Assembly (NCBI GenBank): GCA_037833965.1
Contig: AP031356.1
Span: 4,920,501-4,984,500, forward strand
Length of the DNA: 64,000 bases
Direction: 5' to 3'
Source of the DNA: Marchantia polymorpha subsp. ruderalis
Taxonomy: Eukaryota; Streptophyta; Marchantiopsida; Marchantiales; Marchantiaceae
Part shown: positions 12,860-55,870 of the stretch, piece after piece
Layout: each line of letters begins with the position of its first letter
How positions within the stretch are numbered: position 1 is the stretch's first letter
Notes under the pieces: model-generated
Databases searched by the model: none
Seen by the model: the letters and a program-made list of their open reading frames with translations, nothing else
Told to the model about the DNA's origin: nothing
Translations under genes and position numbers: made by a program

Positions 12860-14761
12860 CAATAACTTCCTTCTTAAGTACACATCCGTTTAAGTATGCA
12901 TCCCGGCTAAGTACGCATATTTTTCCCAAAAAGTTTGGGTTCAACATTTATTGGGCAAACATGTCACGAATTGTCATCTAGCGCAGGTTTTGAAGTTTCC
13001 TCTTCTTAACATTGACACAGACGGCATGTTGCTTACTCTAAAATGCTTCAAATGATTTCTTCATATCATCAAATGCTTCATTAGCTTTGATTTGAACATC
13101 AGGGCATAGAAGCTGATCCTCGATGTCAAGAACCTGCTTATAGAGTAATTCAAACCCTTGGAACTAGATGCCGATTTGTGTTTCAACATTCTGTTCAAGC
13201 GGATTAACTTCATCATCGTCATTATTTTCCGCGGGTTCAGCAACTTTTATTGTTTCTAGAAGCTCTTCCACATCCTCCAAAACCGCAGCCGCAAATGCTT
13301 CGCTGTTCTCATCGTCAGCATGAACGAAGTCATCGATTTCAAGCGACTCAATGATCAAATTCAATGCTTCAAAAGCCTCCATGATTTTAGCATCGAGGTC
13401 TCCGTCATTGCATTCGTTCTCGGCTTTAAATTGTTTTGGCATGAGTTCAGCCTTTTCAAAAGCATTTTTGATCGAAGCTTGAGAAACAGAATCCCAGGCT
13501 TCTTTTACGTAATTTGCAGCATCTAAAAGTTGTGTTGCATTCCCATAAAGTACCCCAGCAGATCCTCGCCGAAGTCTTCGACCTTGATCTTTTTTACGAG
13601 CTTTCACGTCGTCGTCAAGTTGGTAAAAGTCGAGAACGTCCTTGAGATACAAATACTTATAGCGTTTCTTCAGAGCTGCGATAATTCCCATATCGCAAGG
13701 TTGCTTCCAGCTTGTATAATTTGGGGGAAAGAACATTACGCGAATGTTGTCACGTTCGAAGCTTTGGAAATGGCCCGGAGCATTATCCATCAGCAAAAGA
13801 ACTCTCCGCCATGTTCGCTTCTTCACTTCTAGGAAAAACACTTCATTGAACCACTTCCAACCGTTTTCTACGTCCATCCAACCTTTTGTCTGATTAAAGT
13901 AAGGTACTGGCCACTGCCGATCCTTAATGCAAACTGGTTCTTTCGGTTTTCCGATTAATGAGCATGGAACTTTGTGTGACCCTGTTGTGTCGGCACAAAC
14001 GATAAGCGAAACTCGATCTTTTGATTTCTTTTTGCCCCTTGTCGTAGAGATATAATCGCCCGGCATAAGAAGACTAAATCTTGGAAGCAATCGAAAAAAA
14101 GGACCTGTTTCGTCCATGTTGAAGATATTCTCAGAGTCGTATTAAGCTATAATCTCGTACAGTTCTTCCAAAGCTACTAACAACTCCGGGTCGTTCTTGT
14201 TGACTTCTGCGCCTTCTCCATGAAGAAGCATTTTTTCAAACCGCGCCTTACTCTGAAACGGCTTAACCATTGCCAAGAAGCCTTAAAGTCAGATTCTGGA
14301 ATTGACAAATCCGATGCAATGCTTTTCGCTTTGGCCATGGCAAGGGATGGAGGTACATGGAGACTGGCTCGACGCATGCTATGAATTCAGCAATAGAGCA
14401 TATCTTGAAGCTCCGTGAATCGTCCAAATAAAGCTCAAAACGTCTCCTCTTTAGCTTCTTCCGTTAAAAGAGCATATCGGGCCATGATCGCCTCACGGTT
14501 CTCCCAAACCTTTCTGATGGCGCCTTCACTAACACCATATTCTCTTGCTAAGGTTCTCTTACAGAGAGAAGACGTCTTGCTCAGCTTCGAGATAATCTCG
14601 CAGCGTTGCGACTCATTGAGACGCTTTCCATTCGAGTTCTTCGACATGAGAGACAAATGCAAGCTGATTTTTGGAAGTGCACAGTCTAAAGTACGCACCT
14701 ACCGGCTAAGTACGCACAAAGCGTTCAGGTTCAAGTTGCGTACTTAAGCGGGAGGCTATTG
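12860..14761 (-). mobile_element. pogo/Tigger-like DNA transposon
   Basis: A 1,902-bp element is flanked by TA on both sides (12,858-12,859 and 14,762-14,763). It has imperfect terminal inverted repeats of about 25 bp: the left end reads CAATAACTTCCTTCTTAAGT and the right end, on the opposite strand, CAATAGCCTCCCGCTTAAGT. Subterminal AAGTACGCA-like motifs recur inside both ends (for example CCGGCTAAGTACGCA) and could be transposase sites. TA targets and a DDE/CENP-B-type transposase define the Tc1-mariner/pogo superfamily. It sits inside the non-autonomous LTR element and on the opposite strand. Confidence 0.9.
13164..14647 (-). pseudogene. pogo/Tigger-like transposase, broken
   Basis: Reading from the ATG at 14,647, the product has a pipsqueak-type N-terminal helix-turn-helix (LNESQRCEIISKLSK, YGVSEGAIRKVW). 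A CENP-B/Tc5-type helix follows (FKASWQWLSRFRVRRG). The DDE domain comes last: NMDETGPFF (first Asp), LLLMDNAPGH (second) and PPNYTSWKQPCDMG (third). It ends in an acidic tail. The gene is disrupted: two in-frame TGA codons lie between the two helices (about 14,433 and 14,385, both one transition from CGA), a frameshift lies in an A-run near 14,230, and a TAA lies just before the DDE block near 14,140. The DDE part stays open for 317 codons. The protein is most likely not made. Confidence 0.88.
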
Positions 14762-19052: not shown

Positions 19053-20466
19053 TTAATGTAGCATATCAGGAACCATTGGCTGGGAATAGGGAGAGTGATG
19101 ACCAGATGACATGCTTCCGAAAGGGACAGGATCCAAATGGCCAGTTTGAAGACCAAGAGCGCGCAATCCTCCAGGATGTTGGGATGCAGTGTGGTGCAGT
19201 CGCTGCAACTGTCTGGACAGATCCATCGCATGCGACCTGAGCCTTTGGTTCTCATCTGTGAGAGTTACGTAACGTTGAGAAGCAATAGAATACTTGGTCA
19301 TCATGTGATTGTTCTCGGCCCTCAGGTGCGCAACCTGGGCTCGCAACTCATCGAGATGCTGCTGCTTCCTCAGGCGTGATCTCCGTGCAGACTCCCTATT
19401 CGACAGCATGCGCTTTTGCTTCCGTTCGTCGACTCCGCCTGCGTGCTGATCGTCGTCGGAGGTGGAATTTGACGGTGGCAGAGGATCGGGAGCGTCTCCC
19501 GAGCTCGCCTTCCCCGTCGTGCCTTTTGATTCCCTCTTGGCCCCAAAAGGATAATGATCAGCTTCGGGAGCAATAATAGAGGGTTTGACATCCCCGGCGT
19601 CTGGTTCCGAAGAGTAAGACGACGAACTTCCTTCCAACTGTCTGTCTCTTCCAGTCCGCTTTACTCCATCCGGTTGGTTCTTGCCGGACTGCTGTACTCT
19701 GGACTCTGCCACCACTCTTTGCGAGTCCCTGTCTGCAAGAGAATAATTTCCGAGGGCACGTGGTAAGTGCGAATCAAACCCCAACCCTGTACGAGATAGC
19801 TCGCAGCCTACCAAAGACAGGTGGCTACGACCTCCAAGAAGGCAATCTGTCCAATTTAGCGTGCGGAAGACAAATCCCATGGAAGGAATTAAAGCCAGTA
19901 ACGAATAAAATCATACCGGCTCTTGAGCATTTTCATCTGGCGAGTGGAAAGAAGTTCTAACAGCCAGAGTCTAATATGGAAACAGAGAAGAACCACATAC
20001 CATTCGCAATACTGCCAGCCGACGAATGGCTAAGAGGTGGAGGAGACGAAGTTCCATTCGTACTTCTTTCCTTACACTCTGCGTTGACTGCAACAGAAGA
20101 AACAGACGAAGATGCCCCGCCTTCAGCAATTCTCGAAGCGTGAGGAACGGGGGCCTGAGGAGCTGGAGCCTTGGCAGAAGATGAAGCAGCAGCTGAAGAC
20201 GCACTCGGATATGGTGCTGGAGGGTCATTAGACCGAGGAGTACAGGACGACTGAACATTTAGTTGCCACAAAGGTGCGAAGAGGTCGTCCACGGACGTGG
20301 CGCGCCGCATGGTATTGGACATCATAGCTTCCCCTTTCTTGTTGTTACTATTGACCCCGTCCGTCTCATCTCCTTCTCCGCTCACTTGCTCCATGGCACC
20401 CATCCTGCCTGCTTTCTCGATCTTGAGCTTCTCTGCCTCCCTCCGCGTACCTAAACTCTCCACCAT
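19053..20466 (-). CDS. bZIP transcription factor, group S-like
   Basis: Two exons (20466-20001 and 19732-19053, minus strand) join in phase 1 across a 268-bp GT-AG intron to give about 381 aa. The start is the first in-frame ATG, at 20466. Internal Met codons 20-40 residues later are alternatives. The N-terminal half is low complexity (Ala/Ser/Pro rich) with a TSVDDLFAPLWQL patch. The bZIP lies at about residues 257-336. Its basic region DERKQKRMLSNRESARRSRL contains the invariant N-x7-R/K spacing. The leucine zipper runs through LDELRAQVAHLRAENNHM into YVTLTDENQRL and LSRQLQRL. The long zipper with 'Q.YVTL..EN..LR' is typical of plant group S factors (bZIP11/53 type), which bind ACGT-core sites, often as group C heterodimers. 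Unlike angiosperm S1 genes I found no sucrose-control uORF in the leader. Confidence 0.88.
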
Positions 20467-43430: not shown

Positions 43431-44796
43431 TTTCGTGCTCCATATGTACAACTTGCATAGTAGCACAGTGTTGCCTAAGACTCTTCAAAGCAATAATTTT
43501 GGTCAACGCATTACATGGATTGAGTTTTTACCGTCAATCTTGACTAGCTTAATTGTTTTCTCAAACATTGCTTGTCCAATAAAGTGATACATGATGTTAA
43601 TGTGTTTCACTTTGCTATCCATGACTTGGTTTGCAATCAAATGTAAAGCACTCTGGCTATCACAATGAAGATTGACCAAACCCTAAACAATCTCATCTTC
43701 ATGATAAGACTATTCAACCAAATAGCTTACTTTGCCGCTTCGGCTGCTTCCACATACTCAACTTCCGTTGTTGATTGAGCTACGCACTTCTGCAAGGTAG
43801 ATTATCAAATAAGTCTCCACCGCCAAGTGTAAACACATATCTAGTTATATATCTTCTTTTGTCTAAATCTTGTACGTAGTCAACATCAAAGTAACCAAAC
43901 AATGACTAGACATTGTTTAATAATAATAATAATAAACTTCAAACAATAAGCCATAATTCACCGTACTTTTCATATATCTCAAAATTCATTTCACTACTTT
44001 CCAGTGAATTTTTTCTAGATTCGACATGTACTTGCTCACCTTCTCCATTGCTAGAGCAATATTAGACCTAGTGCACGTCATTCAATACATGATGTTGCTT
44101 ACGGTTTGTTCAGAGGCAACACATGACATTCTTACTTTCTTCACAACATCCGTAGTACATTGAGCTCCAGATAGTTTTAAATGTGATGGTAGAATAATCC
44201 ACACTACTTTTGAATCGGCCGTGTGGAAATTGTCAAGTATACTACAAACATATTTGCCCTGAATCAACCATAACTTTTTCTGTTCAAAATTTCTATAAAT
44301 ATCCATGCATAATATACTCTTTGATTCATCCATATCCTTCATCTTAAATGAAGACTTCAGGTGACTCTTGCATTCATCAACATCGAATTGGTTCTTTGTC
44401 AAGATAAATATGTCGTCAACGTAAAGTACCAAAATAATGAGATTGAACGATTCATCATTCAACTTTTTCATGTAAACACAAGAATCATACACGCTTTGTA
44501 GAAAACCTTGTGCTTTCATAAACTCATCAAATTGTGTATTCCACTAGCTAGACGGTTGTTTCCGTCCATACAGTGATTTCAACAATCTACAAATCACACT
44601 CTTTTAGCCTTTGACCTCAAAGCTAATTAGTTGTCTCATGTAGACTGCTCTAAATATCCATAAAAAATGCTGTAACCACATTCATCTAGTCCAAAACAAG
44701 ACTAAATATTGCGACTAGTGCACATATGAGACAAATTGTAGCATACTTTGCTACAAGCAAAAAATAATTGTTGTAATTCACATAATTCTTTTGTGT
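43431..44796 (-). pseudogene. copia reverse transcriptase/RNase H, decayed
   Basis: A 145-codon open piece (44,082-44,519) holds the YVDD catalytic motif and flanking residues (GFLQSVYDSCVYMKK, NLIILVLYVDDIFIL). Downstream, in other frames, the RNase H motif STTEVEYVEAAE is readable. Upstream, residues such as AFFMDI correspond to the 'KTAFL.G.L' block. Stops separate the pieces, so no full product is possible. Confidence 0.8.
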
Positions 44797-44801
44797 AAAA
44801 C

Positions 44802-45221
44802 TGTAACACTAGGGTTTAGAGAGAATTTCACTCGAAGATAGAAACGTAAACTCTGAAGATGAGAGATACCAACAATGGTTCTCCTCTCCCTTATATAGCT
44901 CTCACCAACAAGTACAAGGTGATAAGATCTAATCCCCACCATCCATACCACTCCTAGTGGATGGATGACGTGGCGGATAACCCTAACAAGCACACGGATC
45001 GCTGACGTGGCGCACCCAACTAACACACTAACTAACACACTCAATCCTTACCTACAAGCACACGGATTGCTGACGTGGCACTGTCAACTAACACATCCAC
45101 TCTGTACCTACCAAGTGCGCGGATCGCTGACGTGGCAGCTATGACTAGTGCACACTAAAGTATCTACATCAATATTCAGAGTAACCTCTACTTTAGTTCT
45201 AACTAACTAAAGATGGTTACA
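44802..45221 (-). repeat. 3' LTR of the chromovirus
   Basis: It is 420 bp and identical by eye to the 5' LTR at 50,444. In element sense it starts TGTAACCATCTTTAG and ends CCCTAGTGTTACA. Confidence 0.95.
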
Positions 45222-45237
45222 AACCTCCCTCCTTTTA
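45222..45237 (-). other. polypurine tract of the chromovirus
   Basis: The minus strand reads TTAAAAGGAGGGAGGTT directly before the 3' LTR, the expected plus-strand primer. The pol stop codon TAA (45,237-45,235) overlaps its start, so coding runs to within 13 bases of the LTR. Confidence 0.85.
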
Positions 45238-48200
45238 AGATGCAACGTCCTCGTTGCACATACGTTCAAACTCCTGAACTATCAAAGGTGCATTTGCTAA
45301 ATTTTTAGCTGGTTCCCAAGTTGATTCATACGATGGATAGCCTTTCCATTGAATCAAATACTCTACTTTGGGATATTTATGACCTCGAATACGTTTCTTG
45401 AGTATCTTTTCTACCTCAAACTCCTCATGATCTGCTATCAAGGTTGGAAGAGGAGGTGGTGCTGGTTGATTGGTGAATTGTTTTGGTCGTGGTACATGTT
45501 TTCGCAATCGTGACACATGAAATACTGGATGTATTTTCATATGTGACGGAAGTTCCAACTTGTATGACACTTCACCAACACGCTTCAAAACCAAAAATGG
45601 ACCAATGTACCTAGGGTTTAACTTTGGTGTTCCTACAAGAGACAAATTCGTTGTAGATAACCAAACATGATCTCCAACCTCAAAAATCACTTCTCTACGA
45701 TGAGCATCGGCATGCTGCTTTTGCCGATTTTGAGCTATCACCAACTTCTCCTTGGCCTGATGTAGTCCTCGGTGAATATGCTCCATGAATTCGTTGACTG
45801 CTGCAACTTTGGTCGAAAACTCCTCTCCTTTCGGAAGTCTCATCAAACTTGAAGGAGTTATCGGATGAGCTCCATACATAAGAAAAAATGGAGACACTTT
45901 TGTGGATGCATTAACAGAATTGTTATATGCAAATTCCACAAGTGGCAAAAGGTTGTCCCACTCTTCTTGCTCTTCTAATGTGAATGCTCGTAGCATATCC
46001 TCTATGGTTCTATTTGCCCTCTCAGTTTGTCCATCAGTTTGAGGGTGATAGGCCGTTGACATTGCTAGTTTTGTTTTGAAAAAACTAAACAAAGTTTTCC
46101 AAAATAAACTAGTGAAGTGAGTACCTCTATCCGTGATTAACACTTTGCTTAAGCCATGATTCACAAAAACTGCGTCTAGATACAATTGAGCTAGTTGTGG
46201 AGCTGTTACTGTTTTTGTGGTTGGCCTGATGTGAATCATCTTGCTCAATTTGTCCACAAAAACCACCACTGAATCATGTCCTAACGAAGTCCTTGGTAAC
46301 TCACATACAAGATCCATGGTGACATGTTCCCACCGCTGTTCGGGAATAGGAAGAGGTTGTAATAAACCCGCTGGTTTTTGATTACTTGCCTTGTTTTGTT
46401 GACAAGCAACACAACTTCGAACGTAAGACTCCACATCCTCACGTATTTTGGGCCAAAAGTACACTCGTTGTATACTCTCCACGGTTTTCTCCACTCCCAC
46501 ATGACCTGCAATGGCTGTATCATGACTTTCTGCCAAAATCATTGTGCGCAAATCGTGATCTTGTGGAATCCATATACGCTGATTGTAAAACGCCAAACCT
46601 CGAGATTTCTCTGCCTTTCCAGTTTGTAGTGCTCGAGTGATCTCTTCATCCTCCTTTGTGGCTTGTGACATCTTGCTCCACCAATCCGCCTGAATTTTCA
46701 CTTCTGCAACATGATTCAAACAAGGCATGCGTGTGAGAGCATCTGCAAGTTGCTTCTTTCCCTCCACGTACACAATCTTCATGTTGAAGCGTTGACGCCA
46801 CTCTGCCCATCGAATTTGTCGTTTGGACAGATCCTTCTGAGTTTCCAAATAAACCAAGGGTTTATGATCAGTCTCCACCACAAACTCCTTATCACCCAGA
46901 TAATGCTTCCAATGTTTGGTTGCCAACACGATAGCTAACTCCTCCCGTTCTGTCGTGTGATAATTTTGTTCCGCCGCCACCAACTTTCGAGAATAGAAAG
47001 CAACTGGATGCCATCCATCCTCCCATTCTTGTTGAAGTATGCCACCTACTGTTGTACCTGATGCGTCAGTGGCCAACTTGATAGAACGGTTAGGATCATA
47101 CCACTTGAGAATAGGTGCGTGTAACAAAGCATCTTTCAATGCTTGAAAAGCTAACTCTTGAGCTGTTCCCCATCTCCACTTCTGACCTTTCCCTAACATG
47201 GAAGTCAAGGCCTGAGCTAGTCGAGCAAAACCTTTCACAAATCTACGATAGAATCCAGTGAGCCCTAGAAAACTCTTCAATTGAGTTTGATCCTCAGGTG
47301 CTATCCATTTCTGAATGGCCTCTATCTTCTCACTCATCACTTGGATTCCTGTAGCTGTAACTCTATGACCCAAGTAATCTACTTCTGACTTGCCAAATTC
47401 ACATTTTGAAGCTTTGGCATACAATTGATTGTCTCTTAAAACTTGAAGTACCTCTCGTAAATGACTTCTATGATCACTCAAAGTTTTGCTATACACCAAT
47501 ATATCATCTAGAAAAACAATGACAGATTTATCTAGATAAGGGCGAAAGATATCGTTCATCAATCCCATGAATGTAGCTGGTGCATTAGTGAGACCAAAAG
47601 GCATCACCAGATACTCAAAGTGTCCATACCTAGTACGAAAAGCTGTCTTGTGAACATCTTCATCTGCAATTCGAATTTGATTGTAGCCGCTTCTCAAATC
47701 TAGCTTGGTGAAGTACTTCGCTCCTTGAAGTTGATCAAACAAATCATCCATACGAGGTAATGGATATTTGTTTTTCACCGTTTGCTGATTCAACCCGCGA
47801 TAATCGATACATAGTCTCATGGATCCATCCTTCTTCTTCACAAAGAGTACTGGAGCTCCATAAGGTGAAACACTTGGCTGAATGAATCCCTTGCTCAACA
47901 TCTCCTCCACTTGAGCTTTGCATTCTTCCAATTCGTTTGGAGCCAAACGATATGGAGCTTTGCAAGTTGGTGTACTTCCAGGTATCACCTCAATCTTGTG
48001 ATCAACTCGCCTCTTTGGTGGTAATCCTGCAGGTAGATCATCTGGAAAAACATCTTTATACTCCATAAAAATGTCGTTCAAGGACTCCGGGATGTAAGGT
48101 TTGTCCGTGGACCCAATATCTCTTATAAGTCCAAGGAAACATACATCATCTCTAGAAATGGATGCTGTACCCATCACAAAGAGGGGTAAATTCCTATTCT

Positions 48201-48708
48201 GAGATCTAATTCTATCTCCATAGATCTTCCATCCGCTACTTGTAATCACTTTTCTTCTCCAATCTACCTTCGGATTATATTGTTCCATCCATGGCATTCC
48301 AAGGATGACATCATACCGAGCTAAACGAATTACTCTCCATTCAATGCTCTCCTTGTATCTACCTATGGATAATTCTACACTCCGTGGTAGTGTTTCTATC
48401 ACTTCAGTTTGCCCGTTTGGCAATTCAACTTCTTCACTCACGTCCTTCATCAACATCAAACCTAACTTCATAGCAACACTCCTTGATAGAAAATTCTCAG
48501 TTGCTCCAGGATCAATTAAAACTCTCACCTTGTGTCCTTCCATGAAACCATCAGTGACAATGAGTTGAGCTTGCTTCTTACTCCTTCCATGAGCTCCCAA
48601 CCATTGCTTTCTTCCAACCTCGCCTTTTCTTCGCTTTGTAGAACCAGTAAGGCCGCGAGGCAAGATTACTGGTGATCTTCGTTTCCCGAAACTGCTTCCT
48701 CCACCTCT
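45235..48708 (-). CDS. pol: chromovirus Pol (protease, RT, RNase H, integrase, chromodomain)
   Basis: This open frame lies in the -1 phase relative to gag, beginning after a TGA at 48,711-48,709. It has no ATG near its start. Using the slip site at 48,687-48,681 the fusion with Gag would be about 1,531 aa. Domains in order (residues counted from 48,663): protease with [10 protein letters not shown] (about 50), reverse transcriptase with [23 protein letters not shown] and [10 protein letters not shown] (about 230-400), RNase H with [14 protein letters not shown], and a HHCC integrase zinc finger (H..GH...C..C). Then come the integrase catalytic core with [19 protein letters not shown] and [14 protein letters not shown], and finally a chromodomain ([32 protein letters not shown]). 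The chromodomain places it among chromoviruses, whose integrase is thought to be steered to heterochromatin. All catalytic residues I can check are present. Confidence 0.95.
48617..48687 (-). promoter_or_regulatory. gag-pol -1 ribosomal frameshift signal
   Basis: On the minus strand the heptamer GGGAAAC (48,687-48,681) sits exactly in gag phase as G GGA AAC, a canonical X XXY YYZ site. After a 7-base spacer come an 8-bp stem ACCAGTAA (48,673-48,666) / TTACTGGT (48,650-48,643) and a second pairing of its loop, GCCTCGC (48,661-48,655), with GCGAGGT (48,623-48,617). This is an H-type pseudoknot. The gag stop TAA lies within stem 1. A -1 slip places ribosomes exactly in the pol frame. Confidence 0.85.
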
Positions 48709-49829
48709 TCATACTCTATCCCCTCCATATTGTTGAACGGTCGTCGCTGCATGGGCCGTCCTCCTTGTTGTGTCGGCCGAACTCGACAAAACTTGGCTAT
48801 GTGACCCATTCGTCCACATGCATAGCATTGGCGATTGTCACGAACTCCAGCTCCTCCTCGAACCATTCCATTATTTGCATAACCTTCTTGCAAATTTGGA
48901 ACTCCTGGTCGCCTAATCTCACCTCCAAATCTTGGTGGTGGTCCTCTTGTTGGTGCAAAACCTTCTCTACGTCGAAGGTTTCCCAACTTCATCGGTGTTG
49001 GACCAGATGGATCTCTAAAATTGCTCACTGGCTCACCGTGTGTGACACCAAAAGCACCTGAAATTCGTTGAGCAATTGCGATTGCTTCATTCACAGTAGA
49101 TGGATTGCTTACCATCACCTCCTTTCGAATTCGATCTTTCAAGCCTCGTTTGAACACGTCCAAGGCTTCAGCTCCACTCATATCCATGATAGATACTTGA
49201 AGATCACGAAATTCTTCAATGTACTCATGAATACCTCCTTTCTGCTTCAGATCCCACAACTTCATTCTTGCAGTTTGAAGAGAATCCACCGCTTGAAAAT
49301 TTTGCAGAAGTCCTTCCTGCATTCCACTCCACGAAATGGTAGCACCTCGTTCTGAAAGCATTCTCTCCCATGTTGTGTACCATGTGAGAGCCTTATCCGT
49401 AAGATAAGATCTCATGAACATTCCTGCAATATAATCAGAAACATGAAAATGGGATAAATGAATATTCATCCTCATAATCCATCCCTCTAACACTCCCATT
49501 GCTCTACTCCCTTTGTAAGCTTCCACCTTACAGGATTTTCCCATTCGAAGCAAAAGATTTGCTTGATCTTCAATCTCTTGAAGACGTCTCCTATTTGCCT
49601 CTGCTGCATCAATAGGAGTTGGTTCTGGCTGAACTTGGGAAGCTTGAACTTGAGGTTCAACTTCCATCTCTCCAACTCTCTCTCTATCTACTTTCTCACT
49701 CTCTAATGCAAAGATTTTATCTTCCATGGCTTGCTGCTTGGTATGCCCATCTACTATCGCTTTTCTCAACTCCTTCATCTCCGCCATGATTGCATTGAGA
49801 ACCTCACCCATATCAATTGATGTTCCCAT
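48666..49829 (-). CDS. gag: chromovirus Gag
   Basis: This 387-codon ATG-started frame begins with a coiled-coil-like charged N-terminus ([19 protein letters not shown]). The retrotransposon capsid region (Retrotrans_gag type) follows, with [22 protein letters not shown] and [16 protein letters not shown]. It then has a Gly/Arg/Pro linker and a single CCHC zinc knuckle [14 protein letters not shown] before an acidic end. Gag builds the cytoplasmic particle that packages the element RNA. The frame ends at TAA (48,668-48,666), five codons after the slippery heptamer. Confidence 0.95.
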
Positions 49830-49846
49830 GCTTTTTCACACTCCCT

Positions 49847-50101
49847 CTAATACAAAGTGAGTATAATCATTATGTGACCTCTCAACAAAGGAGTCACAAA
49901 AGGTGCAGGTGACTCTATCACAGCTCTATAGTACTCCTCTCCATAATTCCTCACAAGAAAATCTCTCCATATCCTCTTCTGTCTATATACTGTTCTAATC
50001 TCTACATAAGTGCTGAATCGAACCAGGACAGGTGGTTCGCGGTTCAAATCCATGAAACAATTAGTATAGAATGTATATAGTACAATCCCAAGTCTCTCCA
50101 T
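49847..50101 (-). CDS. small leader ORF 2 of the chromovirus
   Basis: An 84-codon ATG-started frame ends 18 bases upstream of the gag ATG. The peptide has basic and aromatic residues (VEIRTVYRQKRIWRDFLVR) followed by NYGEEYYRAVIESPAPF. It resembles the peptide of the preceding small ORF (shared pattern D/E-I..., F/Y-LV, G, R-V/V-I-ES..P, P). No family is recognised. Its start overlaps the end of leader ORF 1 by 41 bases in another phase. Confidence 0.45.
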   Translation of the reverse strand: MERLGIVLYTFYTNCFMDLNREPPVLVRFSTYVEIRTVYRQKRIWRDFLVRNYGEEYYRAVIESPAPFVTPLLRGHIMIILTLY

Positions 50102-50279
50102 AAGTAACTATTGGAAGAATCAGTGGCACTCTTGACTCCATCACTCTAGTCATAAAATCTGCACCCCAACAAGCCACAAGGTACATCCGAAAATGATGTT
50201 TCTCCATGCAACGAAGGTGAATATCGAATAGGTTAGGAATTGGCCAGTGCGGTACTGGATTCCTGTCAATCCCGTCCAT
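50061..50279 (-). CDS. small leader ORF 1 of the chromovirus
   Basis: A 72-codon frame starts at the ATG at 50,279. The frame is open a little further upstream but without ATG. The peptide contains FDIHLRCMEKHHFRMYLVA and WGADFMTRVMESRVPLIL and aligns end to end with leader ORF 2, as if one had arisen by duplication. The ATG follows a TTTTTGCAG that looks like a splice acceptor, with a GTGAGT donor-like site about 100 bases upstream (50,383-50,378). No known domain. Confidence 0.45.
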   Translation of the reverse strand: MDGIDRNPVPHWPIPNLFDIHLRCMEKHHFRMYLVACWGADFMTRVMESRVPLILPIVTYGETWDCTIYILY

Positions 50280-50430
50280 ATCTGCAAAAACACAATGTCC
50301 CCCTTCCACCTCTCTCTACATGCAGATGAATGACCTCTGCCAACCTCTATACACTCTCAAGACTACACTCCATCATCACTCACTTGCTATTCCATGAGGG
50401 GTAATCCACACTCAAGGAAAGAGCAAGGTC

Positions 50431-50442
50431 GCTCTGATACCA
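50431..50442 (-). other. primer-binding site of the chromovirus
   Basis: The minus strand reads TGGTATCAGAGC one base after the 5' LTR, complementary to the initiator Met tRNA end. Confidence 0.9.
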
Positions 50443-50530
50443 TTGTAACACTAGGGTTTAGAGAGAATTTCACTCGAAGATAGAAACGTAAACTCTGAAG
50501 ATGAGAGATACCAACAATGGTTCTCCTCTC

Positions 50531-50541
50531 CCTTATATAGC
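50531..50541 (-). promoter_or_regulatory. TATA box of the chromovirus 5' LTR
   Basis: The minus strand reads GCTATATAAGG, a strong plant TATA match. It lies downstream of the TGACGTGGC cluster and about 90 bp before the primer-binding site, as expected for a U3/R boundary near 50,505. Confidence 0.7.
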
Positions 50542-50607
50542 TCTCACCAACAAGTACAAGGTGATAAGATCTAATCCCCACCATCCATACCACTCCTAGT
50601 GGATGGA

Positions 50608-50778
50608 TGACGTGGCGGATAACCCTAACAAGCACACGGATCGCTGACGTGGCGCACCCAACTAACACACTAACTAACACACTCAATCCTTACCTACAAG
50701 CACACGGATTGCTGACGTGGCACTGTCAACTAACACATCCACTCTGTACCTACCAAGTGCGCGGATCGCTGACGTGGC
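50608..50778 (-). promoter_or_regulatory. four TGACGTGGC bZIP-type sites in the LTR
   Basis: TGACGTGGC occurs at 50,608-50,616, 50,645-50,653, 50,713-50,721 and 50,770-50,778 (plus-strand coordinates), 70-240 bp upstream of the TATA box in element sense. The core ACGTGGC is an ABRE/G-box-type element bound by plant bZIP factors. The 3' LTR carries the same set. Confidence 0.75.
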
Positions 50779-50868
50779 AGCTATGACTAGTGCACACTAA
50801 AGTATCTACATCAATATTCAGAGTAACCTCTACTTTAGTTCTAACTAACTAAAGATGGTTACAAAAAC

Positions 50869-52150
50869 CTCTAGCCACCAACCTGGCTTTGAAGATTTTT
50901 GCCTCATCTCTTGTTGGATTATCTTTCAGCTTGTACACCCATTTGGAGTCAATGAGTGTGTTGAACTTTAAAAAGTTCAACTAACTCCGAAGTCTTGTTG
51001 TCAATTGGTGATTACATCTCTCGCTCCATAATAACATTCCAGTTAAGATTCTTGATCGAAGCTTGAGCTTCTTTGTATGAAGAATGTTCACCTTCTAAAA
51101 TTAATGCCATATCATCATCATACTCAAAATCAAGATCACGATCTTTGAGAATGGATGAATTTGCCCATACATCAAATCTCTCAAGAGCTCTACTAGGACA
51201 TTGTGATTTCCTAGTAGACGTTTCCGTTTGAACTCTATCGTCTGGTATTGTTGCAATAGGCTCACAAAAGATAACCGTCTGTAGTTCCTCGAGAACTCGC
51301 TTCATATGCATCAGTGTTCATTCTTGTCACAGATAATTAGTATAGAATGATCAAACTTTCCCAGAACAACATACATGAATAAAAGTTTTCCCCTGGTGAG
51401 TACGGAGAGACATAAAACTCTTTCATTAAATCATGCTTATTGAAAAAAACATCTATACTAACAATCACCTTACATGCAAATTGATCCCATAACCAATAAA
51501 CTTTCACTTCACTAGTTATACAAGAAAAGAAATGTCGTTTTCTTGGATGTAATATCTAATTGAATCCTATGCTACTAAGATGTGAGTGTATAAACAATTC
51601 AACCAAAAATTCTCAAACAACTATAATTTGTTATTCGTTTATGACTCAATTCAAACGTTGTTGAGAGATTGAATTCACTAGAAGTAAAAAGATTTACCAA
51701 ATAAATTGCGACGTTGACAGTTTCAACCCAAAATTCTTTAGTTAAACCTGATTGATTCAGCATAATCCGCACTTCTTCAAGACAGTTCAATTGAGTCTTT
51801 CAAAAATAACGTTTTGTTGTGAAGTATACACTATTGCGATTAATCGCTTTCTCTATACAATAACTCTGAAATTTCTCGCTAGTATACTTGCCACCATTAT
51901 CTCATTGTAGATATTTCACCTTGTTTACACTCTGAGTCTCTTGTATATGTTAACTTTTGAAAATGAAAACACTTCAGACTTGTGGCTGGTTAAGAAAACA
52001 TACCCACAAATAAATGTACTAATCATCTAAAAAAGAAACATATAACAACTTTCCAAATAGTGAGTAAACATGAGAATGTCCTCAAACGTCGCTGTGTACA
52101 TGCTCTAGTATTTCAGTGATACAATATTCATAAATAGCATTAGCTTAACT
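50869..52150 (-). pseudogene. copia integrase to RT start, decayed
   Basis: This is the right-hand part of the split copia element. Readable minus-strand pieces are DNGGKYTSEKFQSYC (integrase core, near 51,880), the FWVETVNVAIYLVN...NYSCLRIFG segment (51,599-51,790), a linker with SRALERF (51,012-51,311), and KWVYKLKDNPTRDEAKIFKA directly beside the chromovirus insertion. Stops and frame changes separate them. Confidence 0.8.
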
Positions 52151-53587: not shown

Positions 53588-55741
53588 TTAAGATGTCGAA
53601 TTTGGTTCGGCCGAGAGGTAGATCGACGGCAGTGGCGACTCCGAGAGACTGGTGGCATAGGGGTCTACCGAATTAGAATTGGAAGAATTGGAAGAATTGG
53701 AAGAATCAGAGGTTCGGGACGGTGGCTCCGACTGGGACGAAGTGTGGTCGTCAGTCGGGGCTCTGGGAATGTCGTAGCCCCACCAGCTCGAAGGAAGCGG
53801 AGGCAGCGAGGAGATGGGAATATCGCCCTTCAAGAAGCCTTGGACCTGGCGCATGGTCGGCCTCTTGGAGGAGTCCGGGTGGCAGCAGCAGAGGCCCAAC
53901 GTCAACATGGTGGTCATTTCCTCGACGTCGAACCCTCCGGCGCGTTGCAGCGCGGGATCGGCCGCGCGCAAAAGGTCGCCCTCGTTGTGCAGGCTCCACA
54001 CCCAGTACACGAGCCCTTGCTCGCCCGGCAGCTCCCGGTCAGCCGGCTTCTTGCCGCAGGCGACCTCCAGCGTCAAAGCCCCGAAGCTATACACGTCGAT
54101 CTTCACCGTGGCCACGCCCGTGATCGTGCACTCGGGCGCCATGTAGCCCACCGTGCCGGCCGGATTCGTGCTGTAGTGCGTATCGCTTTTGTCGTAAGAT
54201 CTGGCCAGCCCGAAATCCCCCAACCGCGCATTGAACTCCTTGTCGAGCAGCACATTGCTGGACTTCACGTCCCGATGCATGACGGTGAGCCCGGGCACCC
54301 CTTCGTGCAGAAATGCCAGCGCCGCGGCCACGTCGCTGACCATTCTCTTCCTCCGCTCCCAGCACAGCGCCTCGGCGTTCGAGCCCTTCGCGGGGAACAG
54401 CAGTTCCTGCAGCGTCCCGTGCGGCATGTAATCGTAGACGATGTAAAATTTGCCCTCGTCGCAGCACCATCCCAGCAGCGGCACGAGGTTCTGATGCAGC
54501 AGCCGCCCGATGGCCTTCACTTCCGACTCGAATTCCTTGCGTCCAATTTCGTTCGACGTTTTCATGCGCTTGACGGCGATCAGTGACTCCTCACAGCTCC
54601 CTTTCGCGTCCCCTTTGCGGAGCTTCCCCTTGAAGACGATGCCGAACTTTCCGCGGCCGATGATCGAGTCCGGCTTGAATCCGTCCGTTGCCGAGACCAG
54701 ATCTGCGTATGAGAAGGCCCGAGGTCCGCACAGATGGTCCAGATAGACGGCCGACAAGTACGTCGGCAGCCCTCGGTCCACCTGGACCTGCACCGTGCTG
54801 CGTTGCCGAGTGCGGCAGAAGATCCACACGGCGCAAACCGCGACCGCGACCACGACTGCGGAGGCGAGGCCGACCGCCAACGAATAATACCACGACCAGA
54901 CGTAACCACAGGCCGACGGAGCGCCCCAGAGATCGACCGGCGCCCCCGTGGCATCGAAGGCCCAGTCGAAGATGGTGGGCTGCGAGAGGCTCGAGTTCGC
55001 AGGGCCGGTGGATGCCGAGAATCCGACGTACCGCGGCTGCGAAAGCAGAACTGTGAGGTTCACCACCTGGCTCAAACTTGCTTGACATGGCTTCCGGCGA
55101 TCCTTGCTCACTCTGACCTGGACCTCCGATGTGTTTCGATCGTAGTCGACCCAGGCGTACGTGGTCTCCGTGCTGTCAGACGTTTGAATGTCCGGCGTCA
55201 CCTTCGTCGTCAGCGAGGTCATGCTGTCGAGATTAATTCCAACGTGAGCGCGCGGCGGGTCGTCGAAATTCACCTCCTGCTTCAAGTCGAACTCGACCCC
55301 AAAGTTAAGGCCCGTCTTCACGCCGTTGGTGGACTCGTTCAGCCAGCCCATGAACCCGTAGCCCTCTGCCGCCGTCGGAACGTACGTGGCGTCCGTGCCG
55401 ATGATGAATACGAACCCTTCACCGTTCAGTTGCTGGCTCGTCAGGAAGTTGAAGCTGAACGCCGTGCTGAACGACTGCGCCGGCGAGAACTGAACGGCCC
55501 GGTTGTACATGCAGCGGCCGGTGACGATGGACGACAGGCTCGACGACGGCGGTGTGAGGCACATAGATATGACGGAGCTGTTCGGGGGTACTAACGACGC
55601 GTTCCCCGTACAAATAATATCGGTCGAGCTGAAATTCGTCGTGGCGGCTGAGAATGTAAAACTTGTATTGCTATTACTGCTCGCGGAAACCACGACCACC
55701 ATATAAAAGGCCACCAGTGCAATTATGGATTTCGTGCCCAT
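53588..55741 (-). CDS. L-type lectin receptor-like kinase
   Basis: A single-exon frame gives 717 aa from the ATG at 55,741. That start gives a textbook signal peptide (MGTKSIIALVAFYMVVVVSA) and a strong context (G at -3 and +4). An upstream in-frame ATG at 55,807 would add 22 residues. A legume-lectin domain follows (SFNFLTSQQLNGEGFVFII, FGVEFDLKQEVNFDDPP, HVGINLDSMTSL) with many N-glycosylation sites. Next are one membrane span (SLAVGLASAVVVAVAVCAVW) and a cytoplasmic Ser/Thr kinase: IIGRGKFGIVFKG, IAVKRM, MHRDVKSSNVLLD, LGDFGLARS and GTVGYMAPE. Gly-loop, Lys, HRD and DFG residues are present, so it should be active. The Ser/Asn tail comes from a GGAAGAATT microsatellite. Such receptors sit in the plasma membrane and act in defence or stress signalling. 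The ligand cannot be told from sequence. Confidence 0.95.
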   Translation of the reverse strand: MGTKSIIALVAFYMVVVVSASSNSNTSFTFSAATTNFSSTDIICTGNASLVPPNSSVISMCLTPPSSSLSSIVTGRCMYNRAVQFSPAQSFSTAFSFNFLTSQQLNGEGFVFIIGTDATYVPTAAEGYGFMGWLNESTNGVKTGLNFGVEFDLKQEVNFDDPPRAHVGINLDSMTSLTTKVTPDIQTSDSTETTYAWVDYDRNTSEVQVRVSKDRRKPCQASLSQVVNLTVLLSQPRYVGFSASTGPANSSLSQPTIFDWAFDATGAPVDLWGAPSACGYVWSWYYSLAVGLASAVVVAVAVCAVWIFCRTRQRSTVQVQVDRGLPTYLSAVYLDHLCGPRAFSYADLVSATDGFKPDSIIGRGKFGIVFKGKLRKGDAKGSCEESLIAVKRMKTSNEIGRKEFESEVKAIGRLLHQNLVPLLGWCCDEGKFYIVYDYMPHGTLQELLFPAKGSNAEALCWERRKRMVSDVAAALAFLHEGVPGLTVMHRDVKSSNVLLDKEFNARLGDFGLARSYDKSDTHYSTNPAGTVGYMAPECTITGVATVKIDVYSFGALTLEVACGKKPADRELPGEQGLVYWVWSLHNEGDLLRAADPALQRAGGFDVEEMTTMLTLGLCCCHPDSSKRPTMRQVQGFLKGDIPISSLPPLPSSWWGYDIPRAPTDDHTSSQSEPPSRTSDSSNSSNSSNSNSVDPYATSLSESPLPSIYLSAEPNSTS

Positions 55742-55870
55742 ATCGAGGCCACGAGGTCTCACCTCGTTCCATAAGTCGATCAGTTTGCGTGGCCCTCGTC
55801 CGACCATCGGCAATCAATCAGCCCAGGTGTTTCCTACACCTCGTGATTTCTCAGCTGCAGGGCTTTGCGT

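Follow-up and report, generated by a model that had tools for sequence, protein, structure and literature searches.

A probable -1 frameshift site between gag and pol of a recently active liverwort chromovirus

Results

The window, a stretch of 64,000 nucleotides from the genome of Marchantia polymorpha subsp. ruderalis, carries on its minus strand a complete LTR retrotransposon (Table 1; all positions are those of the window unless a contig is named). The 5-bp target site duplication AAAAC is found on both flanks of the element and a purine tract precedes its 3' LTR; we take the primer binding site to be of the initiator-tRNA-Met type. In a profile search Gag matched the capsid domains PF19259 and PF03732, with a CCHC knuckle (PF00098) just below its cut-off (20.2 against 20.8 bits). 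In the pol frame RVP_2, RVT_1, RT_RNaseH, Integrase_H2C2, SH3_Tf2-1 and Chromo scored above cut-off, whereas rve stayed under it (26.3 against 32.6 bits). Protease, RT, RNase H and integrase follow in this order and the chromodomain is C-terminal: the element is a chromovirus (Ty3/gypsy). An earlier reading of the bare sequence (the first-pass annotation) had described it as a young, intact plant-chromovirus copy, and this is confirmed by the open gag and pol frames, the full domain set and the identity of both 420-bp LTRs, from which the young age follows.

The protease active site reads Asp-Pro-Gly-Ala-Thr (48499-48513, minus strand) and thereby differs from the usual Asp-Ser/Thr-Gly; a degenerate pattern for the protease motif gave 0 matches. 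The chromodomain retains aromatic residues at the HP1-cage positions. PMC6317226 reports such a motif for a significant share of elements in Tcn1, Chlamyvir and Galadriel alone. No Rfam family reached its gathering score within 44700-50900. Neighbouring ORFs, all on the minus strand, encode a DDE_1 transposase (13164-14117), a bZIP factor (19053-19880) and a legume-lectin receptor-like kinase (53588-55813), with the element about 2.7 kb downstream of the latter.

Table 1. Features of the element and of its gag/pol junction, in window positions
Feature	Position	Strand	Basis
Whole LTR retrotransposon (chromovirus), 6062 bp	44802..50863	-	identical LTRs, target site duplication, domains
5' LTR, 420 bp, TGTAAC...GTTACA	50444..50863	-	sequence identical to 3' LTR
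Stretch after 5' LTR with primer binding site TGGTATCAGAGC	50414..50443	-	tRNA-type
gag ORF, 387 aa	48666..49829	-	ORF list and Pfam domains
pol reading frame, offset by -1 from gag, with protease, RT, RNase H, integrase and chromodomain	45235..48708	-	domains searched in pieces
Slippery heptamer G_GGA_AAC, in gag phase	48681..48687	-	sequence, frame check
Spacer, 7 nt	48674..48680	-	between heptamer and stem 1
Stem 1 5' arm ACCAGTAA, gag stop codon inside	48666..48673	-	pairing
Stem 2 5' arm GCCTCGC, within stem 1 loop	48655..48661	-	pairing
Stem 1 3' arm TTACTGGT	48643..48650	-	pairing
Stem 2 3' arm GCGAGGT	48617..48623	-	pairing
3' LTR, 420 bp	44802..45221	-	pairwise identity with 5' LTR

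The first-pass annotation had placed GGGAAAC exactly in gag phase, strand unstated; it lies there on the minus strand, as an X_XXY_YYZ heptamer read in the phase of the upstream ORF. Gag continues with GAA GAT CAC CAG up to its stop codon TAA (48668-48666). In the pol frame the last upstream stop is at 48711-48709, so that this frame is open from 48708 on, and both frames overlap around the slip site over 43 nt (48708-48666), with pol at -1. This relation had been stated correctly, and the 24 bases given between the start of pol and the heptamer apply when counted from the stop codon; from 48708 the distance is 21 nt. The 8-bp stem said to begin seven bases past the heptamer and to trap the gag stop is present with 8 of 8 Watson-Crick pairs, and its loop does pair over 7 bp further downstream, although one of these pairs is G-U. 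Together the stems can form an H-type pseudoknot with a loop 1 of 4 nt, a helix linker of 4 nt and a loop 2 of 19 nt. Stop-codon readthrough was rejected as a route to Pol, since the gag and pol frames differ.

The element strand holds 9 canonical heptamers, 4 of them in gag phase (388 gag codons). Only the one at 48687-48681 falls in the overlap; for the other three the -1 frame shuts within 2, 23 and 3 codons. At a rate of 3 per about 387 gag codons, roughly 0.09 in-phase heptamers are expected by chance at the 12 in-phase starts of the overlap, and the heptamer alone is only mildly surprising. A perfect-helix pseudoknot at 5-9 nt spacing that is equally good or better was found at 3 of 618 positions in the rest of the coding part (one every 7 nt) and in 18 of 3000 dinucleotide shuffles. 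The structure is thus present above chance at a typical distance from the heptamer, though a nested competitor fold exists, and the product of both rates gives a joint chance of the order of 0.0005 for heptamer plus structure.

Pseudoknot-free folding of the region is unremarkable (z -0.70, with 51 of 200 shuffles as good). The nested minimum free energy structure (-17.6 kcal/mol) contains the stem 2 pairing and excludes stem 1. Taken as duplexes, the two stems have energies of -9.1 and -11.5 kcal/mol, and an initiation term of about 4.1 is contained in each value; with these terms removed and a pseudoknot penalty, taken as about 9.6, added, the pseudoknot totals about -19, slightly better than the nested structure. 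Both folds are therefore plausible.

We searched the genome (241.47 Mb; of its 9 contigs one has 5.6 Mb and the other eight have 24-33 Mb each) for the 71-nt signal, which occurs with at most 3 mismatches at 310 places (149 forward, 161 reverse; 0 for a reversed-pattern control). At least 100 of these are exact (100 of 100 among the matches listed, on contigs C1-C6). This high copy number implies that the split-frame element has multiplied recently. Four signal copies in the same orientation (G000:C3:30250916-30267891) are spaced by exactly 5635 bp, close to the 5642 bp that the present element measures once one LTR is subtracted, which looks like a tandem array with LTRs shared between elements.

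With two diverged relics as queries a graded series of copies was obtained, and 71 of 88 loci passed the site filter; those dropped were L072 and L046 (large insert), L025 (unmatched at the site) and 14 others for which no match was listed. After subtraction of 7 same-place duplicates and 2 identical sequences, 62 distinct copies were left. The sample is non-random, as copies were picked through similarity to the window, similarity to the two relics and pattern matches. The interval between the CCHC region (48800) and a point just short of the protease motif (48520) has kept its length in 41 of the 62 and is altered by a multiple of three in 9, so that the -1 relation is preserved in 50 of 62 relatives. 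The other 12 carry frame-altering indels of eight different values, and in 7 of the 62 the net change joins the frames (+1 twice, -14 twice, -17 twice and -23 once). Given the 50 split relatives and the eight indel lengths, the split frame is the state of the family and not a lesion.

Sorted by identity, 8 of 8 copies (above 98.5%), 11 of 11 (95-98.5%), 15 of 27 (90-95%), 4 of 12 (80-90%) and 0 of 4 (below 80%) contain the exact heptamer. The first-pass annotation had named two outcomes that would speak against a frameshift signal, intact relatives devoid of the heptamer and an in-frame gag-pol consensus. Neither occurred: all 19 copies of at least 95% identity have the exact heptamer, and no fused form prevails.

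In most of the diverged copies changes are spread about evenly over codon positions and stops are frequent, with the exception of L034, which has a third-position excess; for this reason we regard the older copies as neutral relics. A search for a second active sublineage through L034 gave no sibling closer than 93% among 40 scored matches. Neutral decay was simulated for the 62 copies with CpG-aware substitution rates specific to each copy. Changes in the heptamer come close to the neutral expectation (42 against 46.4). For stem 1 we counted 41 changes in the 5' arm (34.3 expected) and 30 in the 3' arm (37.0 expected), for stem 2 33 (59.7 expected) and 38 (47.5 expected), respectively. Pair counts set gaps aside, and the gap placement of L077 across stem 2 is ambiguous. 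On this basis stem 1 keeps 437 of 474 paired cells (432.6 expected, P 0.26), whereas stem 2 pairs are kept above the neutral level (376 of 409, 361.2 expected, P 0.0075). In a letter shuffle of the 62 copies the kept pairs were matched by 76 of 500 shuffles for stem 1 and by 4 of 500 for stem 2.

Compensatory changes between related copies had been proposed as a check of both stems; among the copies within this genome they lend no support beyond chance. Double compensating changes number 12 against 10.0 expected for both stems (P 0.3) and 5 against 3.09 for stem 1 alone (P 0.2), in copies that are mostly neutral relics of one lineage. Covariation neither proves nor refutes the knot, as the relics are unselected and a single active lineage is visible among the sampled copies. 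Parsimony on the comb-like tree likewise gave no separate measure of constraint in the source lineage: changes in the source merge with hypermutable C to T and G to A decay, and codon positions show no clear contrast. For this reason we made no use of the small number of internal changes (2 over 8 columns) in the 3' arm of stem 1.

One relic, L042 (G000:C3, near 555644-556069), keeps 15 of 15 pairs through 4 double changes, one of them C-G to A-T (P 5e-5 for this copy, about 0.003 after allowing for 62 copies). When the stem 1 hairpin of L042 served as a search pattern, L042 itself was the only match. Since the copy is decayed, both of its frames being interrupted by stops, and the hairpin search yielded this single place, we do not count it as selection; chance, or a hairpin-templated correction of the arms, are possible alternatives.

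A YIDD-type RT pattern has 283 matches in the genome, which do not all belong to one family. One of these loci, L089 (G000:C1:334465-336565), holds a C-5 cytosine DNA methylase segment (PF00145, E 9e-7) at 180-494 and, about 1 kb downstream, RT-like motifs at 1506-2099, with stops between the segments. Pfam gave no match for the one RT segment scanned nor for 498-1313, the RT being judged by motif alone. L089 is possibly a case of a methyltransferase carried by a plant retrotransposon.

Discussion

Programmed -1 frameshifting is very probably the right explanation of this junction, which would serve as the site where a chromovirus with recent activity recodes gag into pol and makes Gag-Pol. 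Frameshifting accounts best for the phase and layout, for a heptamer that is the sole one opening into pol, for a pseudoknot that is rare by chance, for the high copy number and for the split frame in 50 of 62 relatives; in addition, PMC5009743 names G_GGA_AAC as one of the -1 heptamers at which mammalian ribosomes shift most readily. The H-type pseudoknot would hold ribosomes translating gag with G_GGA_AAC in the P and A sites, where the two tRNAs could slip back by one base. A minority of ribosomes would then go through the gag stop (inside stem 1) in the -1 frame and produce Gag-Pol, and the remainder would read four further codons, stop and release Gag; the site would in this way set the ratio of Gag to Gag-Pol. 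Counted against frameshifting are the unremarkable nested fold, which competes with the pseudoknot, the neutral decay of the heptamer, the 5' arm of stem 1 with changes above expectation, and the lack of a compensating excess. Overall the mechanism is a known one in an unusual host group and its functional reading likely. With moderate confidence we lean towards a pseudoknot-stimulated gag-pol frameshift that one liverwort chromovirus lineage has kept through its whole visible history.

The stimulator might instead be a nested hairpin formed by the arms of stem 2, or stem 1 by itself, with slippage at the same heptamer and the knot being incidental. We consider this possible but doubtful; as it is a variant of the best explanation, the odds of the two overlap. 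It is favoured by the nested minimum free energy structure, which does without stem 1, and by stem 1 showing an excess neither of compensating changes nor of kept pairs. Nonetheless, stem 1 starts at exactly 7 nt with full Watson-Crick pairing and the joint structure is rare by chance, whereas the retention of stem 2 pairs fits nested and knotted models alike.

It seems improbable that Pol is made by another route, through a spliced messenger that lacks the gag stop or through termination and reinitiation at the first pol-frame ATG 3' of the gag stop (48543). The former has precedents, as EVADE and BARE1 (PMC12786077) and Ogre (PMC6317226) set Gag and Pol by splicing. For the latter, an ATG situated ten codons before the protease active-site Asp would retain most of the protease. 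Both routes are weak here, because reinitiation would have to get past three out-of-frame ATGs that precede 48543, and no donor/acceptor pair joins gag to pol in frame (at crude cut-offs); moreover, they leave an in-phase canonical heptamer with a correctly spaced pseudoknot unexplained. Still less probable is a chance arrangement, with a functionless signal in copies that another family mobilises in trans. The neutral decay of the heptamer in relics and the presence of another abundant Ty3-like RT type in the genome would fit such a scenario, but gag and pol of this copy are open with all domains present, and a joint chance of the order of 0.0005 argues against it. That the split frame is a lesion, with a one-base change in this copy of a fused working family, is scarcely credible: frame-joining changes are few and take four different values, which gives little support, and the junction is common to the 310 signal places and to most relatives.

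According to a 2003 survey, as relayed in the 2016 review PMC5009743, pol is at -1 in 28 of 51 animal elements, and only two plant types have separate frames, both at +1. In plants, most groups of LTR elements encode a single fused polyprotein and some possess two ORFs (PMC6317226); splicing is one of the means by which plant elements are known to set an excess of Gag (PMC12786077). Among the literature matches listed, drawn from a collection with few subscription papers, no title announces a -1 site between gag and pol for an LTR element of plants, so that such a report may exist. If our reading is true, the gap left by the 2003 survey would be filled, and the fused-frame habit of plants would not be universal among chromoviruses. 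A recently multiplied plant element with a classical -1 slip site would also be a natural setting in which to measure -1 frameshifting in plants, and would let one ask whether the fused frames of plants replaced an older, retrovirus-like arrangement.

The retroviral gag-(pro-)pol layout consists of a tandem-slippage heptamer and a downstream structure. Retroviral and animal Ty3/gypsy -1 sites share with the element the type of heptamer, its phase, the spacer, the pseudoknot, the position near the gag stop and pol at -1; the element differs in that its host is a land plant. Plant sireviruses are of the Ty1/copia type. Like the element they have separate gag and pol and a conserved stem-forming motif, but their pol is in the +1 frame (PMC5009743). 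PEG10 is a domesticated Ty3/gypsy case of -1 frameshifting (PMC5009743).

Among non-seed plants, SM-Tcn1 of Selaginella, a chromovirus of the Tcn1 clade, resembles the element in having two ORFs and a chromodomain (PMC2864245). It measures 5.7 kb with 440-bp LTRs and over 200 genome matches, and its description in section 6 of that paper is silent on the relative frame and on any frameshift signal. According to the same source no primer binding site was found in SM-Tcn1, and the majority of the Tcn1 clade is without a tRNA primer site, self-priming being predicted (PMC6317226); in the element, by contrast, a tRNA-type site directly follows the 5' LTR. SM2-Galahad (Galahad clade), also from a non-seed plant, shares with the element a tRNA-Met primer site, a 5-bp target site duplication and a chromodomain, but has one fused Gag-Pol ORF (PMC3350952) where the element has split frames.
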